Source: Bugula neritina (lineage: Eukaryota > Bryozoa > Gymnolaemata > Cheilostomatida > Bugulidae). From it: a stretch of 64,000 bases of DNA. Positions 15,594 through 44,989 of the stretch are shown piece by piece. The position numbers and the translations under genes were made by a program. The notes under the pieces were generated by a model. It did no database searches. It was not told the DNA's origin and saw nothing but the letters and a program-made list of their open reading frames with translations. The DNA lies in NCBI GenBank assembly GCA_964035545.1, contig OZ037769.1, forward strand, positions 7,003,429-7,067,428, read 5' to 3'. The stretch's first letter is position 1. Every line of letters begins with the position of its first letter.

Positions 15594-18500
15594 ATGGCGC
15601 TAGGTCTTCTTACCCTTACAGCTATTGCCTTATTCTGTGGACTTGTTTCTGGTGCTTTATTTACCAATATTAGCATTGTGCCTGGAAAGTATTTCCAATA
15701 CACTCTATTGGCCAATGAAAAGGTTAGTCAACTATGAGGTCCTATTTTTTGTGAGGTATTTTTTTATAGCATTTTGAGTGTACTCAAATTTTTGCACTTT
15801 AAAGTTTTTTGGAAAGTTTATTTCATTTTTAATTAGAAAAGTTACTAAATTATCAGTTCTCATGAAAACTATACACACCATTTGATATTTTTTTTCATTC
15901 TATTCTTGGTTTGTTAGTAAAACATTGTTGTACAAATCCGTAAACAAGAAATTAGTTATGTAATCAGAGAATTTTTGCACTTGTCCCAAACAATCTCAGT
16001 CTTTATTTGGTTTTTATAATTAACTCAGTTGCCTGTTGAATTATGTTCACTTTACTAAAAATAAAAAGATGCTAACGAAAAAGCCATTGTAACTGATATA
16101 AGTTTTACCTTTGATAATATTATGGTTTGTTTTGTTTTATCTTCTTAGCTATTACACTGCAACATAGTTTGGCAAAAATATTATCGTGGCAACCATCAGT
16201 AGATGGCTAAACCTATTTCACTTTTTTTGCTTTTATTGAAGCACTGAATATTATGTGTTGAGTATTTGTCAAACTGAGTTAATAAATTGCTTAAATTTTG
16301 CTGTAGCAAAAAAATGGCGATATTTCAACTGCATTCATTGGTTGAATGGTTTAACTTTAGGCTAATATTTTTGATTGTAGCTTGCAGACGTTTCTAGTGA
16401 TGTTCAAGATCCGTGGATATATTATGATGGAGAGTGTCACTGTGTTTCTGGTGTACCACTACAAGGACAAACCTCTCTGGTTAGTAGAATCAGTTACTTC
16501 AGTTCTGAAAATGTTTGACCAATGTATTTAGCTTGATACTCAAGTATGTTTTATCGGAGTGTGTTGAATGCATGGGTGTCTGGTGTGTTTTTGGTGTGTG
16601 TCTGCTAATGTCTGCTTCGACTACATCAAGGATGGGGCCATTATTGGAGCAAAGTTTGCTCAAATTTTCTCTACAGTAGAAGTATTTTAGTCCTACATGA
16701 GGATTATGATTATAGTATACCCTTTGTAAAAAGTAAAGCTGGTTACTTTAGCAGTTTATACAAATTTGCATATATAACAAAAAGTTTAGTTTTTGAAATA
16801 TTGTGAATGTACCTTTTTCTACTGTTCAAATTTTATTACTCAATAGCTGTTTGCTTGTAAACACAAGCCTTAATGAGCCATGAAATGTAAAGTACTATTT
16901 ATTAGCTTCTATAGGAAATGCTGAATGACGTGTGTTTAAGTTTGGCACCTTCTAACTGATGGCCATTGTATTTACTGCTTTCATAAACTCAAAGAATTTT
17001 TTATTCAAACCGTTGAATGAAATTGCATCAAAATATTTGCTTAGTGGTTTATACAGTTCTAGACTTCCTTTGAGCTAGTTTCTTTGACATGAGATATGCA
17101 GCTGAGGCCTGTATAAATATTAGGCATAGCTTGATAAATTAGGTGCTGCAACAGCGAATTTTCAATAGCAGAAGTTATTGAATGTTTTATGAGTTTTGTT
17201 TTTCCCAGTTTCCTGTTGCTGCACCCACCTCTGCTTAACACATGCCTTTACACTTCACACTAAAGATTTTGTTGTGTGTTTTAGATTAGTATTTTAGACA
17301 CAACATGCCACCTCTGCCCTCCTCATAGACTGGAGATTGCTGTGTCACAGGCTAACAATAGCCTGAGGAATCACGGGCTTACAGCCATGTACACGAAGTG
17401 CAGGGAGTTGGACAACCCAGTGTCTGTCATACTAAGATTTGGTTTACGAAAGGCAGGGCTGGACAACAAGGCCAGGGTGAGTGGTTAATCTATATAGATA
17501 GACTGCTATTGAACTTCTTGTAAACTGTGCAAATTACTACACTTTTCTGAGAAAGGGAATTCTTTTTCTCCCTCCCCCTCTCTCACTCCCCTCTCTCTAC
17601 ACTCTCCCCTCTTTCTACATTCCCCCTCTCTACACTCCCCCCTTTTTCTCTCTATCTATCTATCTATCTATCTATCTCTTTACAAAATGGCTGTAAAGGT
17701 CTAAAAGTATTATGCAGACTAAGCACTCACTACCAAACAGTGAACTCATTTCGGCTTTTCTTTTTATACTATTACAAAATCATTATAATATGTATTGCGA
17801 GTGATATCTCCACTGAAGATTGAACCCTCTTGATGCCAACTCAGTTGTCTGTATAGCCTGAACTTCTACTTGTTGAACTGTCATGAGCAGCAGCTTGCGC
17901 ATTGTTCATTCTACTGTGTGTAGCTTCATATCTGACTTCTGACCTGTAATAACTGAGGGAATTCTAGTTCCCCTCAGTACAGCATATCTATATAATACAG
18001 TTTTATCCGAGTTGATAAGGACCTCTTCACATAATCATTTTTGCACATAATGTATAAACAAGTAAAATAGAGAAGCAGCAAAATGAAATGATCATTCCGA
18101 TATAATGTAACAGAAGAATTGGAACTTATAATTTGAAAAAATATTTGTGTGCAATAAAGTCTTTGTATCATGTACAGTAAAATATGTTTGGGTGAAAGCA
18201 AGTCATTTCAACTGAGATATGAGTTGTCTCACCAATGCCTATTACTGTTCCCTCTGATTGGCTAGCTGCCTGTCCCAATATGGTTATTGCATCAAAATGA
18301 GCCTTGGCCTTCTGTGATGTAACTGTTCACAAAAATACATGAATCAAAATATGTTAGTACACTCTTTATGATTATTTAATTTTGTTACTAATTTTCTGCA
18401 ACTACTATATAATAAGTTGTTTGTTATATGCAATATGCCTAGAGATAGTAATTATTATAAATCCCCGTTTAGCTGAAGCAGTGGAGAAATTGTAGCACCG

Positions 18501-19173
18501 TACAATCCTCAACTTTTCTTTAACAAATCTTGGTTTGAGGCGTTGGTCGAAATTATCATGATGACAACTTATTTCGCCACATTTCAAATCTAGAACACAG
18601 GCTTTACTCAATTTCTCCATTACTGCATCTACCTCTTGGTGATGAAGTGTTCTAACTTGTTGAAAATAGCAATAGCTTTGTTTGGTTGGTTTGCACTATA
18701 CGAAGTGGTTCATTATTTGTCATGTAGTACAGCAGGTTTAAGTTAAGATTTTCTAAAACTTGGGTTCAAAGCGAACCGACATTTAAACTATCTCAATGCA
18801 GTAATCACAATGGGAAACATGTGCGTATTCACATTCATTATAGTGTTTGCAATTTAACTTTATAACAATCTAAACTTTCTGGTTCTAAAATAAATTTGTG
18901 TGTGTGTAAAACTTAACCAAATATAATATAAACATCATTCCTAGTTGTTGCAATGCACTTAGATTGTATCTATTGGTAAATTAGCACTTCTGTTTTGGAT
19001 TGCTTTAGGTTCTCCTTCTGAATGATTTGTCAAAGGAACTGAACGTTGACGTTAGCCTTTTGACTATGAGCAAAAGAGTGTCTTATATGAATATTTTACA
19101 AGCATGGTCAGGGGAGGTAACTACTGAAGTTGATGACAGCATAGACGTTTTCTGGGACTTATCATGTCAAAAT
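15594..19173 (+). other. DAG1: Dystroglycan exons 1-4: signal peptide and alpha-dystroglycan N-terminal domain
   Basis: Residues 1-195. The ATG starts a hydrophobic signal (LLTLTAIALFCGLVSG). VPGKYFQYTL and DPWIYYDGECHCVSGVPL correspond to the VGRSFRVTIP and PSWLHWDSQSHTLEGLPL stretches of the vertebrate Ig-like subdomain. VSVILRFGLRKAGLDNKAR to VFWDLSCQN corresponds to the S6-like subdomain ending LSWKLGCSLNQN. In vertebrates this domain is removed by furin and is needed to recruit the glycosyltransferase LARGE. This Ig-like part is shorter than the vertebrate one. All four exons end in phase 0. Confidence 0.85.
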
Positions 19174-25100: not shown

Positions 25101-28100
25101 AAAGATAATTAAATTGAAGCTATTACTAATTGCATATATGGTTGCTACTAATTTTTATTGGGTTAGCTTCCATGTTGGTGAAATTGTTTTTCCTTATATG
25201 GATAACCTGGATGTCTTCTGAAAGTCATTATGTAATAGTTTTTAGTATAAATACATGTAACATGAGTTTAAAAATGGAGATAGCTAAGTCTAACGAACCA
25301 ATGTTTCAAAAACTCAACACTGCCTAAGTGGTGACTTCATTTATTTTGAGCTCTGTGCAGTTCTGATTCGCTTATTTTCTATTAATTACATGCAGCTAGC
25401 ATTTGATTTGATAAGGATTTTTAATATATACACTGGATTAGAGTTATATCAATAACCATGTGTTTAGCTGATGGTCAACAAATTAAGTTAGCCATGCAGT
25501 CTTTCTCTATGTTTGTCTGTTTTTGCTTTATGCTTTTCTTTGACTATTAAATATTTTATACATGCAGGCTTTGAAAATAATTTTGGCTATTATAGGGTTT
25601 GAACTTTACTTCCCAAATTGATTGGCAGTATATCAAACCCTATACTCGAAACATACACACTTACAAATTTCCATATATTAATTTATTCATGTGCATCATC
25701 TTTCTTTCTTGAGGCTGAACCTACTATTAGCTTTCTACCTAAAATTAGGTAAAAATTTATTTTTATACATTAGCCTAAAACTTTTCATCCTGATTCAATA
25801 ATTTAATTAAATGTAACCCCAACCTTTAGGTCCAGTAGCTCCGATTTCTCCTTTGACTCCCCATCCAGCGGGTCCTCTAAGACCTCGTACTCCCCGAGGT
25901 CCACGATCACCTTTTGGCCCAGGAGGGCCTGGCGGACCAGCAGGTCCTGGTTTACAGTAGCAAGGGTTCTCAGTGGTCTTTGCAGTTCCTCCCCAACCAG
26001 TAGGAGGGGTTGTATACGTCTCCGCTCTTTTCTCTCTTCTTAGCTGAAATAGGAATAAACCAAGTTAATTGTTTTAGTTTTAATTTTCTTTCAAAGTAAT
26101 TTTATTTTGCTTGGAAGTGTTACAAATCTCACCTCAACGCCAGTAAATGCCTTGGCTATTTGTTGGTTCAGGTTGTTTGTCTTATTCTCGACATGACCTA
26201 CTCTGTTGATTATCTCCACTTTCTGAGCCTCTGATATTTCAAGTTTGACTTGCAACTCATAGACTGTCTTTAAAAGTTGGACATAAAACACCCCAAGAGT
26301 GGCCACTGCTCCCAGGACGAACAGACATAAAGTAAATTTTAGTATGGCAGTAGTGTTCTTGCTTTTCCCTGGCTTGAGGCTTGGTTCTACAAACCCTTTC
26401 TCCATGTTGTCTGTTGAAACCTAAAGCATAAGTTGGTTAGCTGTATACAGTGTTTTCTCTCTCTTCAAAATTCTGCAAGACCTTAGAGTTTAGTTCCATG
26501 TGACCTTCTGATCTATTTACTGCAGCTGACTGCCATTTTGAAAAGTTTTAATTTTCTGAACAGAAAGGACGTAGTTTTATTTATAATTATTAGGCTCAAT
26601 ATTATCTTACTATCGTGGTAGGTTACAGTTTCCTGTTGTAACACACATTACATTAAATATGCTAGCAGTTGTTTGAGTGTATTGAAGCGTAATATAGTCA
26701 TTTTATATTGCAATGCTGTATTCTATGTCCAACTTCAATATGTATTCTGATAAGAAGTGAACTGGGTTTACTCTGTTATTTGAAAAAGTCAAGGCGGTTG
26801 GAGATAATCAACAGAAACAGCACACCATTGATTATTAGAATAAACTCCATTAAACCCTAAATACTACAATAACAAACTAATAACAAAAGTTAAAATTTTA
26901 ATTTCCTAATTTTGTGAACTTATAATTTTTATTGACATATTTTTATAAGATCACCGTAAGAATAAAATAAGAAATTATTAATCCTAGGTTTTAAACTGTA
27001 GCATAGAAAATTAATAAGTGTGCCAGAATGTCACATTACACAAGTACTACAACATACCTGTTTGCTGGTGTCAGTGCAGAGTGTCTAACTTCCAGCTGCC
27101 TGTCACACTAAATATACAGTGGTGGATTTTTATAATGTTTTATAGGTCCATTATTTCAATTTGTCCTCGAATGCATTGCTGGTGTTTATAGCCTACCAAT
27201 GTGAAATTATCACGAAGGAAAGTTTGGTTATAGACAGCTTATGGTAGTTATTACACATTAAACATGATAATGTTGTTCAGCGTGCTATTAATAGTTTATT
27301 AGCAGCCTATGTTATTATATTATATTCATAGTTTGAGATGAATCAATTTTTTCAAGTCAAGATGCATATAGTTTAGAAATATGTTTTCAATTTAGTTTTG
27401 TTGACTACGTATCAATGTTTGACATTTAATCAAATGCAAACCAAGAGATTTGATTGACTTGGTTTTCTTGTTTGTCTGTGGAGATAAATATATCAAATTT
27501 TAGGGTTTCTTTCATTGACATGCAGCTTCATATCTCCCTTATGTAGCTCAACCTTTACACACACGCACACACGCATATCACTTTCATTCAGAAGATTAAT
27601 TGTATATTAACTTGTAGGGTGGTGAAATAGTGTTGCTCATGTAGCTGCATTTCAACGTAGCTGTTATATTTTACAGACAGACTTTGTGTCTGAGATGGTT
27701 GCCTTAATCTCTCAAGGCGTTCAGAGCTCTCAGTTCTCTCGTGCAGCTGGACATCCTGTCATCAGTTGGTTTCTTAAAACAAGAAGACCCATTGCAACAT
27801 CTAAACGTAGATTGAGAAGAGCTGTGTTATCTACAGCATTGCCCACCACTCTATCAACACCAAGTGTGTCCACAGTGTCTACAAATAGCACAGCTACTAC
27901 AACCAGCCCAGCTACAACAAATGGTACAATGTCTATAAATAGCACAGCTACTACAACCAGCCCAGTAACTACAGATAGTACAATGTCTATAAATAGCACA
28001 GCTACTACAACCAGCACAGCTACTACAGATAGTACAGTGTCTATAAATAGTACAGCTACTACAACCAGCACAGCCACTACAAATAGTACAGTGTCTATAA

Positions 28101-31100
28101 ATAGTACAGCTACTACAACCAGCCCAGTAACTACAAATGGTACAGTGTCTATAAATAGTACAGCTACTACGACCAGCACAGCTACTACAGATGTTACAGT
28201 GTCTATAAATAGCACAGCTACTACAACCGGCCCAGCTACTACAGATGGTACAGTGTCTACAAATAGCACAACTACTACAACCAGCCCAGTAACTACAAAT
28301 GGTACAGTGTCTATAAATAGTACAGCCACTACAACCAGCACAGCTACTACAGATGTTACAGTGTCTATAAATAGCACAGCTACTACAACCGGCCCAGCTA
28401 CTACAGATGGTACAGTGTCTACAAATAGCACAACTACTACAACCAGCCCAGCTACAACAAATGGTACAATGTCTATAAATAGCACAGCTACTACAACCAG
28501 CCCAGTAACTACAGATAGTACAATGTCTATAAATAGCACAGCTACTACAACCAGCACAGCTACTACAGATAGTACAGTGTCTATAAATAGTACAGCTACT
28601 ACAACCAGCACAGCCACTACAAATAGTACAGTGTCTATAAATAGTACAGCTACTACAACCAGCCCAGTAACTACAAATGGTACAGTGTCTATAAATAGTA
28701 CAGCTACTACGACCAGCACAGCTACTACAGATGTTACAGTGTCTATAAATAGCACAGCTACTACAACCGGCCCAGCTACTACAGATGGTACAGTGTCTAC
28801 AAATAGCACAACTACTACAACCAGCCCAGTAACTACAAATGGTACAGTGTCTATAAATAGTACAGCCACTACAACCAGCACAGCTACTACAGATGTTACA
28901 GTGTCTATAAATAGCACAGCTACTACAACCGGCCCAGCTACTACAGATGGTACAGTGTCTACAAATAGCACAACTACTACAACCAGCCCAGTAACTACAA
29001 ATGGTACAGTGTCTATAAATAGTACAGCTACTCCAACCAGCCCTGTAACTACAAATGGTACAGTGTCTATAAATAGCACAGCTACTACAACCAGCCCACC
29101 TACTACAGATAGTACAATGTCTACAAATAGCACAGCTACTACAACCAGCCCAGTAACTACAAATGGTACAGTGTCTATAAATAGTACAGCTACTACAACC
29201 AGCACAGCCACTACAAATAGTACAGTGTCTATAAATAGTACAGCTACTCTAACCAGCCCAGCTACTACAGATAGTACAGTGTCTATAAATAGTACAGCTA
29301 CTACAACCAACACAGAAACAACAAATAGTACAGTGTCTACAAATAGCACAGCTACTACAACCAGCACAGCTACTACAGATGTTACAGTGTCTATAAATAG
29401 TACAGCTACTCCAACCAGCCCAGCTACAACAGATAGTACAATGTCTATAAATAGCACAGCTACTACAACCAACCCAGCTACTACAGAAACTACAAATGGT
29501 ACAGTGTCTACGAATAGCACAGCTACTACAACCAGCCCAGTAACTACAAATGGTACAGTGTCCATAAATAGTACAGCTACTACAACCAGCACAGCTACTA
29601 CAGATAGTACAGTGTCTATAAATAGCACAGCTACTACAACCAGCCCAGTAACTACAAATGGTACAGTGTCTATAAATAGTACAGCTACTACAACCAGCAC
29701 AGCTACTACAGATGGTACAGTGTCTACAAATAGCACAACTACTACAACCAGCCCAGTAACTACAAATGGTACAGTGTCTATAAATAGTACAGCTACTACA
29801 ACCAGCACAGCTACTACAGATAGTACAGTGTCTATAAATAGCACAGCTACTACAACCAGCCCAGTAACTACAAATGGTACAATGTCTATAAATAGTACAG
29901 CTACTACAACCAGCACAGCCACTACAAATAGTACAGTGTCTATAAATAGCACAGCTACTACAACCAGCACAGCTACTACAGATAGTACAATGTCTATAAA
30001 TAGCACAGCTACTACAACCAACCCAGCTACTACAGAAACTACAAATGGTACAGTGTCTACGAATAGCACAGCTACTACAACCAGCCCAGTAACTACAAAT
30101 GGTACAGTGTCCATAAATAGTACAGCTACTACAACCAGCACAGCTACTACAGATAGTACAGTGTCTATAAATGGTACAGCTACTACAACCAGCACAGCTA
30201 CTACAGACGGTACAGTGTCTACAAATAGCACAACTACTACAACCAGCCCAGTAACTACAAATGGTACAGTGTCTATAAATAGTACAGCTACTACAACCAA
30301 CCCAGCTACTACAGAAACTACAAATGGTACAGTGTCTACGAATAGCACAGCTACTACAACCAGCCCAGTAACTACAAATGGTACAGTGTCTATAAATAGT
30401 ACAGCTACTACAACCAGCACAGCTACTACAGATGGTACAGTGTCTACAAATAGCACAACTACTACAACCAGCCCAGTAACTACAAATGGTACAGTGTCTA
30501 TAAATAGTACAGCTACTACAACCAGCACAGCTACTACAGATGGTGCAGTGTCTACAAATAGCACAACTACTACAACCAGCCCCGTAACTACAAATGGTAC
30601 AGTGTCTATAAATAGTACAGCTACTACAACCAGCACAGCTACTACAGATGTTACAGTGTCTATAAATAGTACAGCTACTCCAACCAGCCCAGCTACAACA
30701 GATAGTACAATGTCTATAAATAGCACAGCTACTACAACCAACCCAGCTACTACAGAAACTACAAATGGTACAGTGTCTACGAATAGCACAGCTACTACAA
30801 CCGGCCCAGCTACTACAGATGGTACAGTGTCTACAAATAGCACAACTACTACAACCAGCCCAGTAACTACAAATGGTACAGTGTCTATAAATAGTACAGC
30901 TACTACAACCAACCCAGTAACTACAAATGGTACAGTGTCTATAAATAGTACAGCTACTCCAACCAGCCCAGCTACAACAGATAGTACAATGTCTATAAAT
31001 AGCACAGCTACTACAACCAACCCAGCTACTACAGAAACTACGAATGGTACAGTGTCTACGAATAGCACAGCTACTACAACCGGCCCAGCTACTACAGATG

Positions 31101-34100
31101 GTACAGTGTCTACAAATAGCACAACTACTACAACCAACCCAGTAACTACAAATGGTACAGTGTCTATAAATAGTACAGCTACTACAACCAGCACAGCTAC
31201 TACAGATAGTACAGTGGCTACAAATAGCACAACTACTACAACCAGCACAGCTACTACAGATAGTACAGTGTCTATAAATAGCACAGCTACTACAACCAGC
31301 CCAGAAACTACAAATGGTACAGTGTCTATAAATAGTACAGCTACTACAACCAGCACAGCTACTACAGATAGTACAGTGTCTATAAATAGCACAGCTACTA
31401 CAACCAGCACAGAAACAACAAATGGTACAGTGTCTACAAATAGTACAGCTACTACAACCAGCCCAGAAACCACAAATGGTACAGTGTCTATAAATAGTAC
31501 AGCTACTACAACCAGCACAGCTACTACAGATAGTACAGTGTCTATAAATAGTACAGCTACTACAACCAGCATAGCTACTACAGATAGTACAGTGTCTATA
31601 AATAGTACAGCTACTACAACCAGCATAGCTACTACAGATAGTACAGTGTCTATAAATAGTACAGCTACTCCAACCAGCCCTGTAACTACTACTAGAGGAT
31701 TTACATCAACAATTCCTATTACAAGTTCAACATCTAACAGCACACTGTTCACTACTTCTTCAGACTTGGTTTCAAACATCACTCAGTCGTCAACATCTTC
31801 CACATCAAATACTACATCTATAATGTTCAACACTACCACTCTACTGCCAGCTGTTAACGTTACAGTGACGGCACCCACTAGTTCTTTCGCTCCAACATCC
31901 AATACTACAAGGCTATTTACGACAACGTCCAGCACATTGAATACTACGATCAAAACAACCCTTTTCACAACCCCAGATCTGAATAGCACATTGCCTTTTA
32001 ACACTACGCAGTCTTCGACTTCTTTTGCAAACTCCACATTGCCATCAACTACTCCTACAATCTCCGTATCCACCACCACATTACTGTCTAATTCCACAAC
32101 TCCGATAGCAACACCTACCACGCCAGCAAATTCTACTCAGTCAAACACAACGATGCCTTCAACTACTGCAGTACCGATGTTCAACAGCACTCTATCATCA
32201 ACAACTGAAGTATCAGCACCCAATACAACGTTGTCAACTTTAGGTACCACATTGTCTGGTACTACAGATGTAATGCCAAATAGTACACAATCAACAGAAC
32301 TAACAACAGGCTCTACTTCAATGTCAACTAATACTACAATTCAACCATCAAACAACACATCTACTTTGTCAACACTAACTTTTGAGTTAAACACTACAAC
32401 CGCTTCAACATTTACTTCTGATTCAACTGTAACTGTTGTGAAGTCCACTTTAAACACTAGTCTGTCAACTACCACCACTTTAAATACTAGTCTGTCAACT
32501 ACCACCACTTTAAACACGAGTCTCTCAACTACCACCGCTTTAAGCACTAGTCTCTCAACTAATACCACTCTACAACTAAATACTACACAGCTGACAACCT
32601 CAGCAAGCTCAACTCTGAACTCAACCCAGCTACCAACAACTACTACGGCTCCACCAAACAACACAACTCAACAATCAAACACTACCACCACATCCTTACC
32701 AACTAATAATACCTTTAACACCGAAACAGTTCCAACATCAAATGTCACATTGTCACCAAGTACGACATTGACAGCTCTATTAAACACTACACTTTCATCA
32801 TCAGCTGCTAATACAACTATTGTGCCAAACACAACGCTGCCATCAACCCCTAACACTCCTTCAACTCTAAACTCCACCATGCAACCAACAACAGTTATGA
32901 TTTCAACGCCGGACTCAACACTAAACACAACTGTGATTTCACCATCAAACGCAACGACAATGAGTTCTACTACAGATACAATCACCTCAGGTTCAACAGC
33001 GGCCACTATAAATTCAACAACCTCTACAGGTTCAGTTTCGAATACCACAGCACATTCTTCGACAGCTACCACTTTGCCAATTACCAGCTCTTTAAAACCT
33101 CCTACAAGTAAGAAACATTGTATTTGTTTTCAGTGCATTGTATTTTTTGCTCATTTTGTTTGCAGTTTCGTTGACTTCTTAAGTTGTTTATGTTAAAAAT
33201 CTGTTGTTTCAAGGCTGCATATAACTTTCTAGCAGGAAACCAACATAGTTACCTTTTATGTAAGTGGTTGTGTTGTTAGTGGTAGTTGCTGAGACTTATG
33301 ATACTGAGGGTAGTTATGAGCACTTATCTAGATGGTTAGTTTTTTCAACTATATTATTTAGCATCAGCTACGACGCCGATGTCAAACCCGATTGTTGTGA
33401 ACTCTGTCCCAGAAGTCCTTGTCAAGTTTGGAGTTCACTTTCTCTATAGAATTCCTAACAATACTTTTTATGATGAGCAAGATGGCTGGACAGGAAATCT
33501 TCAGCTTTCCCTTACAGATGACAATAGAAAGGTTGGTGCTTGTTCTAGAGCTGTGTGTACATGTGTAATAAGCAGTTTCCACTAATATTTTATCTTTATA
33601 ACTAATTTAGTTTTGGTGTAGTGTAAATTATTATTGCATTTGTGCAGGGAACAATCCGGTTTTACTGTACATTTCCATGTGCATTTTATGTTACTTCTAT
33701 GTCACTACGTTTCCATTGTTGGAATGTCTACTCAATCAGATCAGTTGAAAGTCACACATTCCTATATATAGTAGATTAGACTTCTCAAAGAATGACAACT
33801 CTAAGTAAACAGGCCTTTAACTCTGCTGTACATTTGGACAAAAATAGCCAATATTAACTTATTTTGGAGCTATTACTTTGCTGCAAATGTTAAAGATTTC
33901 CATTAATGCTATCAATAGGTTATACCTTGGAACTTTTTAGCTGTTGTATATGAGCCTATTTAGGATACTGTATAACACAACTCACTTACTCAATATAAGT
34001 CTGCATAACTTCAATTAGTTGATGTTACTCTAACATTACCAGCACCTGTGACACTGTTAATTGGGAGATTTGACTGTCTAGCGTTACAAAAATAGAGTTG

Positions 34101-37100
34101 AACGACAGACTAACACGCTACTTGTGGAGATGGCGCTACATTAGCACCAGCTGCATCACCAATTGCTTTATATCCTCTATCGTTTATTATCCTGTCTGAG
34201 TAATATATTATCTGAGTTCCAGTTAATACTTTACTGCTGATGTTCTCTGCTGAGTCAATAACTATGAGTTGAAGTTGAAACCATTGTTGGTAAACATCTT
34301 TAAGTTAGATGGCTTTTTAGATGACAAATTGCAAACTGTTAATCTTGTTTTATTGTAGGCTATTCATTCAGTGCCGTGGCTACAGTTCAATACTAAATCT
34401 CAGACTCTGCAAGGGTTAGCAGTGCCTCCCTTCTACACCCGAGAGTCTGGTGACAGAGTAAACCTCACTCTACGGGCCACAGACAGCACGGGGCAGACAG
34501 CATCTAGTCTTCTCACAATAGTAATATCATCGGATGACCTGTTCAAAATATCTCACGTCTTTGAAATGAATATTCGAACTGACTTTGTGTTGTTCACATC
34601 TGGTATTGAGCATGTCTCGTGGTGGGCTGGTAATATCACTGAATTCTTCAATAACTCTATAGACTCAATTCGAGTCCTAGAAGTTCACAACGCGTCGAAG
34701 ACATCAGTGATAGTCAAATGGTCTAATAACACCATTAATAATATCATACCTCCATATACGTGTCCTTTAGCTGATATCTTGCATGGGCTAAACCAGATGA
34801 GATCTGAGCTGTTCCAATCTGATCTCAATCAATTCATAATACAAGATGTGACTCTGGAGCTCCGTGGTGTGTGTCATGACTTCACCACGGCCCTTCCTTT
34901 GGCTACCTCTACACCTGAACAGATTACAACAGACTCTGCTAGCACCACAACACCTGTATCTATAGTCAGTAGGTTGTCAACTTACTTGAATGTATTTTAG
35001 TCAATGGGATGCTGCCGGTCATTCTTGACTTGTGTTGAATATTTAGTGTTGAGTGCAGAACCAGTGAAATGTGGTGCTCCAAATACAGCTTACAGCGAAC
35101 TGTGTGTATGTGTAATTATTTTTGTTTTACAGCCACTACAGCTAATCCACAGCCAATGGTAACTTCTACACTGGATGTACTTACTGTAGATTCTGGTATT
35201 TACTTTGAATATCAGATTCCAGAAAATACATTCTTAGATCTACAAGATGGAAACACAAGAAATCTCACTCTATCCTTACTAGACACTAACAGACAGGTGA
35301 ATATGTACATACGCCTACTGTTATACATACATGTATAAGTCAAATACTAAACCCATTACTGGGTGCTATTAATTTCACTGGAAGACAGCTGTAATATTAT
35401 ATTATATTAAATAATTCTGTTTACAGCCACTACCTCATGACTCATGGGTACAGTTAGACAGAGTTGAGCAGAAAGTATATGGACTGACAGTGTCACCATT
35501 CTGGTCTGGTATTTCCACTCAGTATAACTACACTGTGAGAGCATCGGATAGTCAGGGTAACCAGGTGCACACAACTCTAGTAGTCAGCATCTCTACCATC
35601 AATTCAGTGAGAGTGTCCCATTCCTTCAGTATGAGAATTCTCACAGACTATAGCCTGTTTACCAGTGAACTATCTCATGCTATATGGTGGGTGGGTAACG
35701 TGACCGCCCACTTCAATGAAAGTCTTAACGATATCACCACACTGAACATTGTGGACAGTGAATCTCCAGGTTTAGTGATATCCTGGTCTAACAACACTAT
35801 AAATAGTATAAATCCACCATACACGTGTCCTCTCTCCCTTATATACTCCACCTATTCTGAGTTAACTAGTGAGTCATTCCAATCAACTCTGAGTCAGTTT
35901 ATCATTGAGTCAGTCGAACTGAAACTTCAAGGTATCTGTGAAGGTTTTGATACGACTACTTCACTAATGACTACACCAACCACTACAGTCACCACACCAA
36001 CCACTACAGTCACAACGTCAACAACCACTTCAACTACAACTACACTGCCTCCCACCACAAGTATGATTTTTATCTTTTCATTATAAAATTATTATACCAA
36101 ACATTTTTATATTCTATTTTCTGTGAAATTTAAAGCATAGTGTATATCAGTTTGTTTTGTTGATTTGTTTTACAGCCACTACAGCTAATCCACAGCCAAT
36201 GGTAACTTCTACACTGGATGTACTTAGTGTAGATTCTGGTATTTACTTTGAATATCTGATACCAGAAAATACATTCTTAGATCTACAAGATGGAAACACA
36301 AGAAATCTCACTCTATCCTTACTAGACAGTAACAAACAGGTGTGTATTACTATATACTAGAGTATAGACACTAACAAACAGGTGTGTATTACTATATACT
36401 AGAGTATAGACACTAACAAACAGGTGTGTATTACTATATACTAGAGTATAGACACTACCAAACAGGTGTGTATTACTATATACTAGAGTATAGACACTAA
36501 CAAGCAGGTGTTTATTACTATATACTAGTATAGACACTACCAAACAGGTGTGTGTTACTATACTGGAGTATATTATAAACGTAGAAAATTCAAGCTCTTG
36601 GAAAAGGTTTGAATTTATTTCGATAAAAATTGAAAACGCGTTTTCAGACTCAAAGAGTGTGCACGATAAATGGTAATCAGCCAAATAAATCAAATCTGCA
36701 CCAATTTTTTCCGCACGCTTTAGCTGTTCAACATTTGGTCCACGTGAAATCATCTGAAATCCGCACACAACAACTCAGTCCGGGAAATCTTTCTAATATG
36801 ACCGGCACTAAACCAAGAGCATATTAGTAGCTACAGTGCAAAACTTTATGTGATGTGGACCAAATCTACAATTACAAGTATTATGCACAGTGTATAAGTA
36901 TAGTGAAGTAATTTTCTTCATACTCATATTACAGCAGAATAAGTTGCAGTGTTTTTTGTAGTTTACACCAACATGTTAAGAATTCCTTCAAAGATATTAA
37001 TAGCTTGAAGTAGTTGAGTATTTTGTAGCTAGAAATTAATATTTCAAGTATGTTATTCTGAAATTCTTAATGATGCTACAAATAATTTCATAACTGTTTT

Positions 37101-40100
37101 TATCAACTCTTGTAAGCAATGCTGGCAACAATCCTTCATGGTTTTAGAAATCAGCGTGTAGCCTTCTACCTGTGCTTCCCACCAAGAGTCATGAATATGA
37201 TATAGGAACTAATGCAACATAGTGATTGCACTTGTATATTTTATGTGTTTTACTCTGCAGTTTATAAAAGCTAATTTTAGTCTCGTAATATTTTGAATTT
37301 ATAAATCAATGGTGGTTCAATACCAGAAACATCTTCAAATTTTATTGTTACATTCAGGTATTCCTGCATGAATTAAGTTTGACTCACTACTTGAACAGTT
37401 GGTAAATAGATTAGTCTGTTTAGATGTGATACTTTTCATTTCAGCCACTACCTCATGACTCATGGGTACAGTTAGACAGAGTTGAGCAGAAAGTATATGG
37501 ACTGACAGTGTCACCATTCTGGTCTGGTATTTCCACTCAGTATAACTACACCGTGAGAGCATCGGATAGTCAGGGTAACCAGGTGCACACAACTCTAATT
37601 GTCAGCATCTCTACCATCAATTTAGTGAGAGTGTCCCATTCCTTCAGCATGAGAATTCTCACAGATTATAGCCTGTTTACCAGTGAACTATCTCATGCTA
37701 TATGGTGGGTGGGTAACGTGACCACCCACTTCAATGAAAGTCTTAACGATATCACCACACTGAACATTGTGAACAGTGAATCTCCAGGTTTGGTGATTTC
37801 CTGGTCTAACAACACTATAAACAGTATAAATCCACCATACACGTGTCCTCTCTCCCTTATATACTCCACTTATTCTGAGTTAACTAGTGAGTCATTCCAA
37901 TCAACTCTGAGTCAGTTTATCATTGAGTCAGTCGAACTGAAACTTCAAGGTATTTGTGAAGGTTTTGATACAACTACTTCACTAATAACTACACCAACCA
38001 CTACAGTCACCACACCAACCACTACAGTCACCACACCAACCACTACAGTGACAACATCAACAACCACTTCAACTACAACTACACTGCCTCCCACCTCAAG
38101 TACGATTTTTATTTTTTCTTTATAAAATTATTATACCAAACATTTTTATATTTTACTTTCTGTGAAATTTAAAGCATAGTGTATATCAATTTGTTTTATT
38201 GATTTGTTTTACAGCCACTACAGCTAATCCACAGCCAATGGTAGCTTCTACACTGGATGTACTTACTGTAGATTCTGGTATTTACTTTGAATATCAGATT
38301 CCAGAAAATACATTCTTAGATCTACAAGATGGAAACACAAGAAATCTCACTTTATCCTTACTAGACAGTAACAAACAGGTGTGTATTACTATATACTAGA
38401 ATATAGACACTACCAAACAGGTGAGTATTACTATATACTAGAATATAGACACTACCAAACAGGTGTGTATTACTATATGCTAGAGTGTAGACACTACCAA
38501 ACAGGTGAGTATTACTATATACTAGACTGCAGTGGTTCCCAACCTTTTTCATAAATGTTGACTATTAATCCCCCCCCTTTCAAATAGCAAAAATATTTTA
38601 TGACTTACGGAATGAGAATATATGATACAATGCAATATATTTTGTTCTATCATATTTGCATATAATATAATTATCATAATAGTAATATTATCATTATTTT
38701 TATGTTATCAAACGCAGAGCAGTTCAATTATTAATGTTATGGCTTCATTTAATACTTTTGTGCTAGCTTGCTTAAGCCTGGCTCCGTGTTTGACCAGGCC
38801 CATCTTAAGTCACTCTGCAGGTTAAGGCAGTTTCTTTTCTCTTTGAGATGGGAATCCTACCTCACACGGATAGGTGGTGCTGGACGGCACCAAAACTCTG
38901 CTTTGTCAGTTATGTGCGGGAAGAGTTTGCTTGTTGAAACCCACAATTATTTGGCACACTGATGTTAAATTTTTTTAAACTCAAACCCCAAACCCTCCAC
39001 ATCAAGCCCCCAACTTTTGAACCCTAAACCCCCACCCCCAAACTCCAGAACTCCAAGTGCAAACCCAAAATCCTTCCCCCAAACCCCTCTTTCAAACTCC
39101 AAATCCCAAACCCCGATATTGAAAACATATGCCATTTTTACTTACTTTTCCATTTGTGCCATTATTACCTGTGCCATTTCTACTGGACACTACCCACAAT
39201 ACATCAACTGGAGAAAATGTCAAATTACCCTTCATTGCTGAATTGTGAACCAATTCAATAAAATCCTCCTGTAACTCCTCTGAAAACTTTTCAACAAAGA
39301 GTTGCAATGGATCACACGTTAAGTTAAGAATCTAGCTCTTTCTTTTTGGGAGGTAGCTCAAAGAAATACTCTTGAAACTCCATTAAAAGTTCAGAGAGAT
39401 GCCTAGAAGTTTTTTTGAAAAATGATCTGGAACAGGTGGTGTCTGGTAAAAATGGCACAGGTAATAATGGCACAAATGGAAAATTAAGTAAAATGGGACG
39501 TTTTCAATATTAACATTGTAGATTTGAGTTAGGGGTTAGACGTTCAGAATGAGGTGTTTGGAGGTTTGGGTTTGGGAAAATTTAACACCAGTGTGCGATT
39601 TTTACTGGTGCCATTTTTACCTAAAATCGGAACAGGTTCTTTTTCTATCAAAGTTCATTGAGTGTAGGGAAAGACACCATGCTTTTGATAGAGATGTCAC
39701 CACTTTAGTGTAACCTTAAAAAAATTGCCGCTGCTATGAAAGGCAATGATATGATTGCACTCCTGCATTTTTAGGTTCAGATTATTCAGTGTAGCAAATA
39801 TATTCACTAGGTATGTAGTATACAGCTCATAGAAATTGACGTGCATGGCTGCTAAAAGTTGACGTGTTGGTTTTTGCATATTTTTTACTTCCATTCGAAG
39901 TAACACAGAGAACAGTTAGGGTAGAGTAATTAATAAACACACATTCATGTAGAAGTAAACTGAGATTGCAGAATATGGTTTAGTTAAACAGATGAACTAA
40001 GATGAAGATTTATAGACATGCATATACATGTAACTTGCAAGAGCTCAAAAACCGTCAACAAATTGCGTGAATTTTTCAAAATCCAAATTCCCCCTTTAAA

Positions 40101-43100
40101 TGTCCAAATTCCCCCCTAGGGGGGAATTCCCCCCAGGTTGGGAACCAGTGTGCTAGAGTATAGACACTACCAAACAAGTACACGTGTATTAGCTTAGGGC
40201 CAAATGTGACAGATTTTCCTCATGCGGGTTCAAATGGATGAAACTCTCTTGCGGGAATGACCTACTACACACAGTGCATAGTCTGCGGGTGCAGAAATTT
40301 ATTAGCTAATGATAATCACGTTGAAATTTACTGCTTGCCTACATGCGTTTGTTTTTATTGTTATGTCATATGCTCTGCAGCGAGAAGATGACTTTAGACA
40401 TTATAAGCGCGGAAAATGCAAACTATTGAAAAAAGTTTTAATTCGTTTAGCTAAAAATTAAAAGTTTGTATTCAAACTCGTAAAGTGTGCTTGATTATAA
40501 ATGGTAGTCAGCCAATTAGATCAAATCTGCTCCTATTTTCCGCACTGGCTGTTCAACAGTTTGCTCACATGAAACCATCTTGAAATCTGCACACACCAGC
40601 TCATTGCAGGAAATCTTTCTAATAGGACCTCACACTAAACCAAGAGCATATTAGTAGCTACGTTACAAAACTTTTTGTGTTGTGGAACAAATATGCAATT
40701 ATATTATGTATTGAGCATAGTGTATAGGTATAGTGAAGTAATTCTTTATATACTTATATTACAGAAGAACAGGTTTGCAGTGTTTCTTGTAGTTTCCTTC
40801 AACAATAATAATAGCTTGAAGTAGTCTTTTGTAGCTAGAAATTAATGTTATTTCAAGTATATTATTTTGAAATGCCTAATAATAACACTAGAAATAATTT
40901 GGTTGCTGCTTTCATCAACTCTTGTAAGTAATGCTGGCAAATTCACAGCTCTAAAGTTTGATAATGCCCATTTCAAACTTGATAATTCATAAATAATTGT
41001 TTTTAAAGTTTTTAAAGTAATCAATTTGGAAAATTTGAATCTGCAAGCGTTACATTATTGTAAAGTTCCAAATTATACCTCCCGTTCAATTACTTCACTT
41101 TTGGGCATGTGTCATTTTGCGAATTTGAACTATCCTTCCTAACTTTAGAAATCAGCGTGTACTACTTGCGCTTCCTAACAAAAGTAATGAATTCGATATA
41201 AGAACTAATGCAACATAGTGATTGCACTTGCATATTTTATGTGTTTTACTCTTCAGTTTATATAAGCGAATTTTGGTCTCGTAACATTTTGAATTTAAAT
41301 CAACGGTGGTTCAACGCAAGAAACATCTGCAAATTTTACTAGCATTACTTACATTGAGGTATTGCTGTATATATAAAATAGGTTTAACTCACTACTTGAG
41401 CAGCTGGTGGATAGATTAGTCTGTTTAGATGTGATACTTTTCATTGCAGCCACTACCTCATGACTCATGGGTACAGTTAGACAGAGTTGAGCAGAAAGTA
41501 TATGGACTGACAGTGTCACCATTCTGGTCTGGTATTTCCACTCAGTATAACTACACTGTGAGAGCATCGGATAGTCAGGGTAACCAGGTGCACACAACTC
41601 TAGTAGTCAGCATCTCTACCATCAATTTAGTGAGAGTGTCCCATTCCTTCAGTATGAGAATTCTCACAGACTATAGCCTGTTTACCAGTGAACTATCTCA
41701 TGCTATATGGTGGGTGGGTAACGTGACCGCCCACTTCAATCAAAGTCTTAACCATATCACCACACTGAACATTGTGGAGGGTGAATCTCCAGGTTTAGTG
41801 ATATCCTGGTCTAACAACACTATTAACAGTATAAATCCACCATACACATGTCCTCTCTCCCTCATATACTCCACCTATTCTGAGTTAACTAGTGAGTCAT
41901 TCCAATCAACTCTGAGTCAGTTTATCATTGAGTCAGTCGAACTGAAACTTCAAGGTATTTGTGAAGGTTTTGATACGACTACTTCACTAATAACTACACC
42001 AACCACTACAGTCACCACACCAACCACTACAGTCACAACGTCAACAACCACTTCAACTACAACTACACTGCCTCCCACCACAAGTACGATTTTTATCTTT
42101 TCATTATAAAATTTTTGTACCAAACAATTTTTATATTCTACTTTCTGTGAAATTTAAAGCATAGTGTTTATCAGTTTGTTTTGTTGATATGTTTTACAGC
42201 CACTACAGCTAATCCACAGCCAATGGTAACTTCTACACTGGATGTACTTACTGTAGATTCTGGTATTTACTTTGAATATCAGATACCAGAAAATACATTC
42301 TTAGATCTACAAGATGGAAACACAAGAAATCTCACTTTATCCTTACTAGACAGTAACAAACAGGTATGTATTACTATATACTAGAGTATAGACACTAACA
42401 AACAGGTATGTATTACTATATACTAGAGTATATACACTAACAAACAGGTGTGTTACTATATACTAAAGTATGGTGCGCGGTAAAAGTGGCATATTAAAAG
42501 TGGCACAGGTAGTTGTGGCAAGTAATAATGGCACAAATGGAAAAGTAAGTAGAAATGGAAAGTTTTCAATATTGGGGGTTTAGCCAAATTTGACATCAAT
42601 GTGCCATTTTACCTGATTTTCCATTTTTGCCATTATTACCTGTACCATTTTTTCCTAAAATCACTAGATTCTAGAATATACATACATACATAGAACATAC
42701 AGGTGTATATTACTATGAAGATGTTAGTAATAATAATTTCTATTTCAGGAAGTTGCGATCAATTCGTGGGTTCAGATTGATAGACCCACACAAACTCTGT
42801 TTGGGTTAGCAGTGGAGCCATTCTGGCAGGGTCAGGGGTCAACTAGCTTTTTCATACTCGCTGCTGATGCCGATGGAAATTCTGTAGCCACGGAGCTCGT
42901 CATAAAGGTAGCGTCCACTAACACTCTCCGCGTGTCGCACACATTCAATATGAAGATTCTCACTGACTACACTCTGTTCACCAGCGAGCTGGAGCACACC
43001 ATTTGGTGGTTGGGGAACGTGACTCGGTACTTTAACTCAGATCTGAGCTCAATTACTCTGACATCTCTCTCTGAGGGTTCCGTGGTAATCAGCTGGTCTA

Positions 43101-44989
43101 ACAATTCCATCAATCAAATAGATCCTCCATACATCTGCCCTGGATCTCAAATATACCAACAGTACAGAATTGTTAATGGCGGGGGCTTAGTCAACAGCCT
43201 TCCTCAATATTTGATACCCTCAATTGATCTAAAGCTACAAGGAATATGCAATGACTATACCACAACTACAGAAGTTCCTACTACCACTTCTACCATTTCC
43301 ACTACATCTACACCTACAACTACTACAGTGTCAACCACTACAACTACACCCACTACCACAAGTAAGTACATGACAACGTTTTCGTCTGTAAGTCAAACCC
43401 GCCATTTAGGAGTAAAACAGGAAGTCTCAGTAAGTGTTTCCTGTCTAGAATGTTCTCTGCTTGCTTGTAGCTACTCAACCCCAGCACCCTGTCGTACTGA
43501 ATACCCTGCCAGAACTTTCTGTACCGGCTGGTATCTTCACTGAGTTTATTATACCAGAAAGCACTTTCTATGACTATCAAGATGGTCCAACTCGCTCTCT
43601 CAATCTGGAACTACTCAATGATGAAGGACAGGTAAAATGTCTCACCAAACACCCTTGTGGTGCAAGACTAAGTCAATGTATCAATCTGTTTATCTGATTT
43701 CTTAGGTGGTAAACTGGCTTTATTGATGAAGTATATATATATTGCAAAGTGAAAATTGTGGTATATAAAAACTATTAGTTAATCAACTTTAACCTTGTAA
43801 TGTAATTTTGATATGATGCATTTTACCATATTTCTACTGTGCTATATTTGGTATGAATCCTGACTAGTTTGAAGGCTATGCACTGTGCATCATACCTTGG
43901 CTCAATAACCTAGCACCTCCAATGTGCAGTATGTATTTTATCTTAATCTATCCAACTATAATTTATAAGTGTATTATATTCTTGCAGGTAGTATCTCCAT
44001 CAAACTGGTTACAGCTCAGTTCTCTCAGGCAGTCAGTATCCGGTGTAGCCTCATATCCATACTTTGACGGGGCTTCTACCAACCAGAACTATTACATTCG
44101 AGCCTCGGACAATGAAGGAAACCACATAAACGCCTCCCTCAATGTTATCATAGATACTGAGAATCTGGCTAGTGTCTCTCATGTGTTTCTCATGACCATC
44201 ACCACAGACTTGTATCTGTTTACTCTAGATAGCAGTCACATTGTATGGTGGGCAGGAAATGTTACCAAGTTTTTTAACTCTGATATCTCCGACATTACAG
44301 TTCTCAATGTGACTGCGCCTTTAGTGACTGTTATGTGGAGTAATAATTCTATCCAATCAGCTTACACGTGTCCAATAGCATCTATCAGAGACCTCTACCA
44401 AATAGTATCCAGCGATCAGTTCATCCAATCACTGCCTCAGTTTTTTATCACATCAATTTCTCTCAAACTGGTGGGTATTTGCTCTGAGTTCAGTGTTGAA
44501 CCGACGGTTGAAACTACTACCACCCCTACTCCCTTTACAAACAGTACTACGAGCACTCTCCCTGCTTCAACCACACTTACTACCACAGTTGTTGCGACAA
44601 AGTTACCTCAGCAAACGCCTGATCCATTTTTAGCTCAGAAAATAGCAATACCAGCTGGAATAATTTTTGTAATACTTCTAGTTATAGTGATATTATTAGC
44701 CGTGCTGAGAAATCGGCGTAAATACCGCGGCAGGTCCCGCTTTGATGCAGACGGTCCTCTGTATGCGCCGAGGTCGCCTAAGCTAATGCCCGAAGAGACC
44801 GATACTACTGAGGACACTAACGGTCAGTTCAATGACCTCTTTGAAAGTGAAGTGATTGACTCACCAAATCAGGAATTCCCAAATGTTGAAAGACCAGCTA
44901 GCAAGGCTGCTCCCCCTGTTTACACGCTACCACCTCCTTTTCCTCACAACAAAACTCGCCAGTCAGATCAGGCTTTTGATTTGCCTTGA
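15594..44989 (+). CDS. DAG1: Dystroglycan with six tandem C-terminal modules and an expanded mucin region
   Basis: Dystroglycan links basement-membrane ligands (laminin G-type domains) to dystrophin and actin. Predicted exons: 15594-15722, 16381-16479, 17285-17476, 19009-19173, 27677-33107, 33362-33531, 34359-34968, 35133-35296, 35427-36060, 36176-36339, 37445-38099, 38215-38378, 41450-42083, 42200-42363, 42749-43361, 43471-43631, 43988-44989. These sum to 11151 bases, 3716 aa, in frame throughout. Order: signal peptide (1-20), alpha-dystroglycan N-terminal domain (to about 240), RRLRR furin-like site (after 243), Ser/Thr mucin (about 244-2005), six cadherin-like plus SEA-like modules (about 2006-3580), membrane helix (about 3602-3623) and a 93-residue tail with PPVY. 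Vertebrate dystroglycan is 895 aa with one C-terminal module. Joining exons 1-4 to the rest across the 8.5 kb intron is supported by phase 0 on both sides and by homology running across the join. Intron 4 holds an antisense collagen gene. Confidence 0.9.
17560..17685 (+). repeat. Pyrimidine tract with (CTAT)n microsatellite
   Basis: CT-rich stretch (repeated CCCCCTCTCT words) running into about seven CTAT units at 17651-17680, in dystroglycan intron 3. Confidence 0.85.
20143..20148 (-). terminator. Poly(A) signal AATAAA of the nested collagen gene
   Basis: AATAAA on the minus strand 26 bases past the TAG at 20175. A short 3' untranslated region is implied. Confidence 0.55.
20175..26405 (-). 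CDS. Type II transmembrane collagen-like protein, nested antisense in the dystroglycan intron
   Basis: Predicted exons in gene order: 26405-26133, 26043-25824, 24839-24822 (18 bases), 24717-21001 (3717 bases, one exon), 20760-20620, 20323-20175. Sum 4518 bases, 1505 aa, in frame. Residues 1-19 are short and polar. 20-45 are a membrane helix (ILKFTLCLFVLGAVATLGVF), with no signal cleavage site, so the C-terminus faces outside. 46-88 look like a trimerising coiled coil. RREKR at 93-97 is a possible furin shedding site, as in membrane collagens XIII, XXIII and XXV. Cys at about 119 and 121 precede the collagen domain, and the protein ends GGWGQTTTC. The Gly-X-Y region is dominated by GxKGxx pairs with almost no proline; the first and last exons contain more normal GPP/GPK triplets. 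Interruptions include two Gly-to-Ala changes (GIKAESG, GVKAEKG) and GEDAPKG. A MACIT-like role in cell-matrix contact is inferred. Confidence 0.88.
24822..24839 (-). other. 18-base micro-exon of the collagen gene
   Basis: TTTTCAG precedes GTGGCCTAGGATTTACAG, followed by GTATGT. It adds exactly two triplets (GGLGFT) and matches the phase of its neighbours (one leftover G in, one out), so skipping keeps frame. Confidence 0.65.
27058..27110 (-). other. Probable 5' untranslated exon of the collagen gene
   Basis: On the minus strand a CAG/GTATGT donor lies at 27058/27057. A matching acceptor (GCTTTAG) lies about 20 bases before the collagen ATG at 26405, which implies an intron in the 5' untranslated region. 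The upstream limit of the exon is a guess. It lies about 570 bases from the dystroglycan mucin exon. Confidence 0.4.
27677..33107 (+). other. DAG1: Dystroglycan exon 5: end of N-terminal domain, furin-like site and giant mucin region
   Basis: 5431 bases in one exon, residues 196-2005. It opens with VSEMVALISQGVQ, GHPVISWFL and KRRLRRAV, parallel to vertebrate VPDIHGVEAP, GYPVVGWHI and PKRVRRQI, so the furin position is conserved. After it the exon is Thr/Ser-rich to its end: an 18-residue repeat array, then non-repetitive Thr/Ser/Asn/Pro sequence with a small 30-base repeat near 32446-32580 (LNTSLSTTTT). The mucin region is about 1760 residues, roughly ten times the vertebrate one. Dense O-glycosylation and many N-sequons are inferred. 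Confidence 0.88.
27880..31700 (+). repeat. 54-bp (18-residue) tandem array encoding the mucin repeats, about 70 units
   Basis: The unit is TVSINSTATTTSPVTTNG with variants (STNS, STATTD, GPATTDG); nearly every unit carries an N-S-T sequon. Some units contain an extra TET insertion and are 63 bases. A higher-order repeat is visible: the stretch starting near 27900 recurs 540 bases later (near 28440), ten units at a time. The array stays open in frame throughout and also, by repetition, on the opposite strand. Confidence 0.95.
33362..34968 (+). other. DAG1: Dystroglycan module 1 (cadherin-like plus SEA-like)
   Basis: Exons 6 and 7. VHFLYRIPNNTFYDEQDG matches vertebrate TYFEVKIPSDTFYDHEDT. VPWLQFNTKSQTLQGL matches KSWVQFNSNSQLMYGL. 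The SEA-like half ends IVKWSNNT...PYTCPLADI and LRGVCHDF, keeping the Cys pair. At the cleavage position it reads KTSVIVKW, so the Gly is absent. It is the most divergent module together with 5 and 6. Confidence 0.85.
35133..36060 (+). other. DAG1: Dystroglycan module 2
   Basis: Exons 8 and 9, near-identical to modules 3 and 4. The cleavage position reads SPGLVISW, without Gly-Ser. A Thr-rich linker (TTPTTTVTT repeats) closes the module. The exon phase pattern (1 in, 0 between, 1 out) is shared by the internal modules, which lets whole modules duplicate without frameshift. Confidence 0.87.
36176..38099 (+). other. DAG1: Dystroglycan module 3
   Basis: Exons 10 and 11, separated by a 1.1 kb intron that begins with a minisatellite of the exon's own splice donor. 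The protein differs from module 2 at only a few positions and has one extra TTTVTTP linker repeat. SPGLVISW stands at the cleavage position. Confidence 0.87.
36340..36570 (+). repeat. Roughly 42-bp minisatellite starting at a dystroglycan splice donor
   Basis: Five to six units of GTGTGTATTACTATATACTA followed by GAGTATAGACACTAACAAACAG. Each unit ends in ACTAACAAACAG/GTGTG, resembling the exon 10 end AGTAACAAACAG/GTGTG. The same array, with fewer units, follows exons 12 and 14. Confidence 0.9.
38379..38528 (+). repeat. Splice-donor minisatellite after dystroglycan exon 12, interrupted by a transposon
   Basis: Three to four units of the roughly 42-base repeat seen at 36340 (ATAGACACTACCAAACAGGT). 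The array breaks at 38528 and one more partial unit resumes at 40152 (GCTAGAGTATAGACACTACC), showing that the transposon landed inside it. Confidence 0.85.
38529..40151. mobile_element. 1.6-kb hAT-like nonautonomous transposon
   Basis: Left end GCAGTGGTTCCCAACC; right end, reverse-complemented, ACACTGGTTCCCAACC. The flanks ACTAGACT (38521-38528) and GCTAGAGT (40152-40159) match at 6 of 8, a plausible 8-base target duplication typical of hAT elements. No transposase recognised. Poly-C/poly-G stretches near both ends extend the inverted repeat. It contains a second foldback element. Confidence 0.8.
38955..39595. mobile_element. Foldback element nested in the hAT-like insertion
   Basis: Inverted arms: the left contains TTGTGCCATTATTACCTGTG and AACCCCAAACCCTCCA; the right contains CACAGGTAATAATGGCACAA and TGGAGGTTTGGGTTTGGG. 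The arms enclose about 250 bases of unrelated sequence. A related copy lies at 42474-42664. No coding capacity. Confidence 0.65.
42364..42473 (+). repeat. Splice-donor minisatellite after dystroglycan exon 14
   Basis: Two to three units of the same roughly 42-base repeat as at 36340, starting with GTATGTATTACTATATACTA. Confidence 0.8.
42474..42664. mobile_element. Short foldback repeat related to 38955-39595
   Basis: GGTAAAAGTGGCA and GTAATAATGGCACAAATGG on the left are answered by the inverted CCATTTTTGCCATTATTACC on the right. It lies in the dystroglycan intron between exons 14 and 15. Confidence 0.65.
43073..43084 (+). other. DAG1: Candidate SEA-type autoproteolysis site (Gly-Ser) in module 5
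   Basis: GAG GGT TCC GTG encodes Glu-Gly-Ser-Val, about residues 3234-3237. SEA and dystroglycan domains cleave themselves between Gly and Ser in G-S-(I/V)-V-V. It aligns with the vertebrate alpha/beta cleavage point by the shared Trp-Ser/Thr-Asn-Asn four to five residues on. Confidence 0.6.
43471..44989 (+). other. DAG1: Dystroglycan module 6, membrane helix and cytoplasmic tail
   Basis: Exons 16 and 17. The module keeps FTEFIIPESTFYDYQDG, NWLQLSSLRQSVSG, the WSNN motif and the Cys pair, but reads APLVTVMW at the cleavage position. A Thr linker leads to the helix AGIIFVILLVIVILLAVL, then the basic RNRRKYRGR stop-transfer. The 93-residue tail has PPVY near its end, corresponding to the dystrophin/utrophin WW-binding PPxY of beta-dystroglycan, followed by LPPPF and ending FDLP. 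The stop is at 44987-44989. Confidence 0.88.

Follow-up and report, generated by a model that had tools for sequence, protein, structure and literature searches.

Dystroglycan is a receptor that ties cells to the matrix. The vertebrate protein (PDB entries 8yt8, 8uf4, 9c3c and 4wiq) has one cadherin-like plus SEA-like module, designated IG2_MAT_NU, a single membrane-adjacent Gly-Ser maturation site and a PPPY end. Tandem copies of this module have been described elsewhere: two in arthropods, Saccoglossus and Trichoplax, and six in Nematostella (Adams and Brancaccio 2015; PMC4582122), whose protein has a short mucin and whose repeats all share one large 3′ exon (PMC4582122, PMC5216574). The same authors speculated that the repeats stiffen the ectodomain and keep the laminin-binding part further out (PMC4582122), and a 2017 gene-structure survey that followed up this work stated that such repeats are not exon duplications (PMC5216574); these and the other papers given by PubMed Central (PMC) number are cited from excerpts of their text. 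Here we describe a dystroglycan gene of the bryozoan Bugula neritina in which each of six modules has its own exon pair, a counter-example to the rule of that survey. It lies in a window of 64,000 nucleotides, the whole stretch of DNA analyzed (C5:7003429-7067428, within a 215.8-Mb assembly).

We consider it likely that positions 15594-44989 of the window form a single gene whose product is a giant dystroglycan, 3716 residues long by prediction, with a head, a furin-type site, a mucin, six modules, a membrane helix and a PPVY/PPPF tail; a stalk, cleavage in module 5, an altered dystrophin link and lineage-specific growth of the array would be further properties of this protein. The gene model has 17 exons, and all 16 introns are GT-AG. 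The outer borders of the modules are in phase 1, and the inner intron is in phase 0 in each of the six. In the frame dictated by the upstream exon, none of the 17 exons contains a stop, whereas the other two frames of the six large ‘b’ exons contain 12 to 25 stops each, an openness far beyond chance. The borders, the phases, the open frame and the matches to dystroglycan presented below bear out the six exon pairs for cadherin-like and SEA-like units that a sequence-only reading of this DNA had placed at 33362-44989. The gene itself extends beyond that interval and begins upstream, at 15594. The sequence-only reading had also placed one membrane helix after the modules, and this segment contains all of the 12 windows with the highest hydropathy in the protein. 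The features are as follows, with the basis for each in brackets.

15594..15722, plus strand: exon 1, start codon, hydrophobic signal-like peptide and beginning of the IG1-like domain (gene model)
16381..16479, plus strand: exon 2, IG1-like domain, continued (gene model; weak colinear match to 4wiq, 4.1 bits)
17285..17476, plus strand: exon 3, stretch between the IG1-like and S6-like domains (gene model, comparison with 4wiq)
19009..19173, plus strand: exon 4, first part of the S6-like domain (gene model; whole N-terminus against 4wiq, E 3.3e-5)
27677..33107, plus strand: exon 5, end of the S6-like domain, furin site and 1765-residue Ser/Thr-rich mucin (gene model, composition)
27809..27820, plus strand: furin-type site RLRR, residue 240, before the mucin (motif scan)
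27872..31680, plus strand: tandem array in the mucin, about 70 copies of a 54-bp (18-residue) unit (repeat scan)
33362..33531, plus strand: exon 6, module 1a, first part of the cadherin-like domain (gene model)
34359..34968, plus strand: exon 7, module 1b, remaining cadherin-like domain, SEA-like domain and linker (gene model, PDB sequence search)
35133..35296, plus strand: exon 8, module 2a (gene model)
35427..36060, plus strand: exon 9, module 2b (gene model, PDB sequence search)
36176..36339, plus strand: exon 10, module 3a (gene model)
37445..38099, plus strand: exon 11, module 3b (gene model)
38215..38378, plus strand: exon 12, module 4a (gene model)
41450..42083, plus strand: exon 13, module 4b (gene model)
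42200..42363, plus strand: exon 14, module 5a (DNA 98-99% identical to 2a, 3a and 4a)
42749..43361, plus strand: exon 15, module 5b, in the sole module with a Gly-Ser cleavage site (alignment, PDB search, structure model)
43076..43081, plus strand: Gly-Ser codons of module 5 (SEGSVVI), aligned with the alpha/beta maturation site of other dystroglycans (alignment)
43471..43631, plus strand: exon 16, module 6a (gene model)
43988..44989, plus strand: exon 17, module 6b, linker, membrane helix, cytoplasmic tail and stop (PDB search; relative P0001 at 95% identity)
44642..44704, plus strand: membrane helix IAIPAGIIFVILLVIVILLAV (protein-wide hydropathy maximum)
44912..44941, plus strand: tail motif PPVYTLPPPF, a PPxY and then PPPF where other dystroglycans have PPPY (alignment)

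When modules 1, 2, 5 and 6 were queried singly against the PDB, nothing but dystroglycan was retrieved below E 0.01, with phmmer scores to 8yt8 of 58.7 bits for module 5 and 38.4-43.1 bits for modules 1, 2 and 6; for modules 3 and 4 the sequence match is shown within the profile only. The Pfam family DAG1 matched exon 15 at 28.3 bits, above the curated cut-off of 23.3, and the four module pieces submitted in a separate search gave 13.1, none, 20.9 and 22.4 bits, all under it. Moreover, the Cys pair of the beta ectodomain has its counterpart in two Cys in each of the six modules. A structure model of exon 15, computed from a 13-row alignment with a predicted local distance difference test (pLDDT) score of 78, resembles the SEA-like domain of dystroglycan (a fold from 8 sequences, with pLDDT 46, was left unused). 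These sequence and model comparisons support the assignment of the modules, which are joined by Thr-rich linkers, as IG2_MAT_NU units of dystroglycan. The idea that module 5 is the most dystroglycan-like of them was only half supported: it has the best 8yt8 score, yet in a comparison with 9 modules from 5 other proteins its mean identity (25.9%) is lower than that of modules 2-4 (27.4-27.7%).

The protein resembles vertebrate dystroglycan in domain order, furin site, Cys pair, SEA-like fold and membrane helix. With that of Nematostella it shares a series of six modules followed by a single membrane helix, and a membrane-proximal module that lacks Gly-Ser (GP in Nematostella, PL here; PMC4582122). 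It differs from the latter in that its modules occupy 12 exons as six pairs, its mucin is long and Gly-Ser is retained in module 5. The architecture, which had been called non-standard, is therefore known in kind (PMC4582122); what is new is its exon-pair encoding, set against the survey (PMC5216574), together with a probable independent origin and a displaced cleavage site. Other exon-duplicated dystroglycan modules were not found in the PMC literature under Creative Commons licenses, including the excerpts of PMC8478517 and PMC10293626, a search that left most subscription papers outside.

Relatives with several modules, which had been suggested as something to look for, do exist. A first homology search, in which only the 8000 candidates sharing most words were scored, gave 3 matches, probably because Thr-rich words swamped it. 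A search with a linker-free query alignment gave 11 matches, P0001 again among them; P0132 and P0133, at the bottom of this list, were discarded for their bacterial-type names or domains. P0001 and P0130 resemble the final exon of the same gene in two close relatives of this animal. Profile searches found six modules each in P0125, P0126 and P0127 (1827-1863 residues), five in P0128, and two strong modules each in the arthropod proteins P0002 and P0003 and in P0124. P0125-P0127 appear to be single open frames, with N-terminal ends that resemble intron read-through.

In the alignment, Gly-Ser at the maturation position is confined to module 5 of the six. The aligned position reads PL in module 6, P0001 and P0130, and Gly-Ser occurs there in none of the 23 modules of P0125-P0128. 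Based on this distribution, we propose that only the SEA-like domain of module 5 would be cut at the maturation step. If it cleaves like vertebrate dystroglycan, the membrane subunit would keep one uncut module, module 6, and the outer subunit would carry modules 1-4 and part of module 5, with non-covalent contacts inside module 5 holding the two together. The array, which the sequence-only reading pictured as a rod, would form a long glycosylated stalk that places the matrix-binding head and the mucin further from the membrane. Published work found the intact cadherin-SEA unit of dystroglycan to be largely shielded from metalloproteases (PMC6586460), so several uncut units in a row may make up a stalk that resists proteases; that the uncut SEA-like units act as serial switches is speculation. 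More broadly, we put forward tentatively, as an idea with somewhat less than even chances, that a six-module dystroglycan arose at least twice, once within a single exon and once by duplication of an exon pair, and that in the second case cleavage moved to the penultimate module, leaving the membrane subunit with an extra uncut unit and a row of uncleaved modules that could serve as proteolytic or force switches. Whether selection acts on stalk length or on cleavage position thereby becomes a testable question.

The sequence-only reading had also assigned a PPxY tail to the protein. PPVY is indeed present at 44912-44923, but the motif aligned with the canonical dystrophin-binding end is PPPF, with Phe in place of the binding-site Tyr. 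An initial tail alignment set PPVYTLPPPF on the upstream arthropod PYQPPPPF, and a later one set it on the terminal YRxPPPY; both are possible, and the later alignment and, by eye, the PPAYPHN tails of two paralogues favor the terminal site. The link to a dystrophin-family protein may be retained in altered form, with PPPF for PPPY. Two places in this genome match EF-hand_3, which we take to be dystrophin-type genes, and two match the glycosyltransferase family GT49, presumably LARGE/B4GAT1-type genes. A search for sarcoglycan gave no match, but its controls gave none either. The two paralogues are located outside the window:

C5:15412098-15413090, minus strand: dystroglycan-like paralogue (L001, L004; PPAYPHN tail, Gly-Ser in the last module)
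C4:18327193-18328140, minus strand: dystroglycan-like paralogue (L006; PPAYPHN tail, Gly-Ser in the last module)

Like the present gene, both have a dystroglycan-like last module, a membrane helix and a PPxY tail. They differ from it in that their inner introns lie elsewhere and their Gly-Ser is kept in the last module (both by eye), and in that they show traces of only a second module (32.2 bits on C5 and a weak 11.3 bits on C4). A third genome match for dystroglycan, on C1 (E 0.39), was taken as chance.

The paralogues raise the alternative that the six-module protein is a dystroglycan-derived membrane mucin that has lost its dystrophin link, and that they now do the job of dystroglycan. The replacement of PPPY by PPPF, the Gly-Ser in the last module and the PPAY tails of both paralogues, and the higher DAG1 score of the one on C5 are in line with this. 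However, PPVY is retained, the paralogues themselves lack the canonical YRxPPPY (by eye), and nematode and urochordate dystroglycans also have Phe at the position of Tyr892, while that of Trichoplax is without the site (PMC4582122). We regard such a loss of function as possible but unlikely, and a dystroglycan with an altered dystrophin link as the better description.

Another alternative is that the six-module state was inherited in common with the sea-anemone type, and that introns were inserted later while gene conversion homogenized the modules. The shared number of six, in P0125, P0126, P0127 and the published Nematostella protein (PMC4582122), is consistent with this. Homogenization is also visible: exons 2a and 2b match their counterparts in other modules at 97-98% identity over stretches almost exactly exon-wide (35121-35299, 35420-36060), and the intron between them is unrelated, a pattern that looks like exon-limited conversion. 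Nematostella was compared by its published description, with P0125-P0127 (P0125-P0128 in the trees) as sequence stand-ins. In a 40-sequence module tree, one group (100/98) comprised the six modules of the window and the last modules of two relatives, and those of P0125-P0128 paired among themselves by position. Forcing module 6 or module 1 onto its positional counterparts in P0125-P0128 was rejected by approximately unbiased (AU) tests (p 0.0009 and 5e-7); these topologies, limited to modules 1 and 6, were picked post hoc from a tree that has long branches. When the last modules of the paralogues were added and P0127 and P0128 omitted, the window group was preserved in the resulting 31-row tree (100/99), and a topology that placed module 6 and its relatives with the paralogues was rejected (p 0.009). 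Moreover, modules 1, 5 and 6 group together while being only 37-40% identical to one another, and one intron place common to six modules is reached more easily by duplication than by six insertions. Ancient conversion among modules may have occurred, and a common inheritance nevertheless seems improbable to us. Judged by these trees, the six-fold repeat probably arose independently of the other six-module proteins, with no module-by-module common descent, as judged for modules 1 and 6, with the Nematostella type as represented by the stand-ins.

Pairwise protein identity across the six modules ranges from 37% to 97%. Modules 2, 3 and 4 are recent copies, with 96-97% protein identity and synonymous divergence (dS) of 0.04-0.08; identity to them is 60-62% for module 5, 45% for module 6 and 41-42% for module 1. 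The ratio of nonsynonymous to synonymous divergence (dN/dS) was computable for 10 of the 15 module pairs, several of them with saturated dS, and amounted to 0.19-0.39. The DNA of exon 5a is 98-99% identical to that of 2a-4a, and that of exon 5b only 54% identical to 2b-4b. In addition, the block common to the module 4/5 and 3/4 borders stops about 106 bases into the inner intron, within a 42-bp minisatellite. Together these observations indicate that one end of the latest exchanges lay in the phase-0 intron that splits the cadherin-like domain, a place no less frame-safe for exchange than the phase-1 borders. The phase-1 borders that had been proposed to make duplication frame-safe are borne out, but the latest amplification did not proceed via them alone. 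We suggest that the array would have grown in this lineage by unequal exchange through introns.

The 42-bp minisatellites begin inside exons 3a, 4a and 5a (36323-36562, 38362-38526 and 42347-42471) and multiply the 5′ splice sites of these exons 3 to 6 times. The repeated splice sites were considered as a source of in-frame isoforms and rejected by eye: in the needed frame, VCITIY is followed by TAG.

The near-identity and low dS of modules 2-4 could also mean an assembly artefact or an allelic duplication, with only four modules in the true gene. This is highly improbable: the inner introns of these modules have unequal lengths (130, 1105 and 3071 bp), the one in module 2 has no sequence in common with the other two, which are only 77% identical to each other over one 574-column stretch, and the gene sits on a 17.7-Mb contig, all of which argues against a simple duplication or collapse in the assembly; synonymous differences occur in all three pairs, and even then four exon-pair modules would be left. 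That the exon pairs are split among several genes or are partly unspliced has very little to recommend it, since, although the model was predicted from DNA alone and a transcript could skip any complete module without loss of frame, a single open frame without internal stop runs over 17 exons with phase-matched GT-AG borders.

Upstream of the modules, residues 118-244 align with alpha-dystroglycan 4wiq as an S6-like domain (whole-query E 3.3e-5; the best E in an earlier search of this region was 0.0084), and the preceding IG1-like stretch is colinear with 4wiq but weak (4.1 bits). A Pfam search of the N-terminus gave no family match for the S6-like or the IG1-like domain. The comparison that matched 4wiq also listed globins and chains of three further kinds, with E values from 0.078 to 0.91, which were taken as chance. 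In translation, the N-terminus is hydrophobic and signal-like. The mucin consists of 58% Ser and Thr and carries 143 N-glycosylation sequons; the furin site that precedes it is not kept in every dystroglycan (PMC4582122).

Intron 4 of the dystroglycan gene harbors, in antisense, a collagen-like gene (window 20147-26420, minus strand, by eye). Its product starts with a membrane helix and has a furin-type RREKR and, in a 1250-residue open frame, a very extended run of Gly-X-Y. Downstream on the minus strand lie open frames with plectin-repeat-like sequence (about 51640-55432), which we take as possibly the end of a spectraplakin-like gene, and a ribosomal protein L4 gene (about 58495-60061). Among the best 120 of 7704 matches for this L4 protein, nine have 81-91% identity, and the matches that carry an organism name go no higher than 75% (over 90-91% of the query) or 73% (over 96%). 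Upstream, also on the minus strand, SPRY-like open frames (about 4427-7987) presumably resemble ASH2L.
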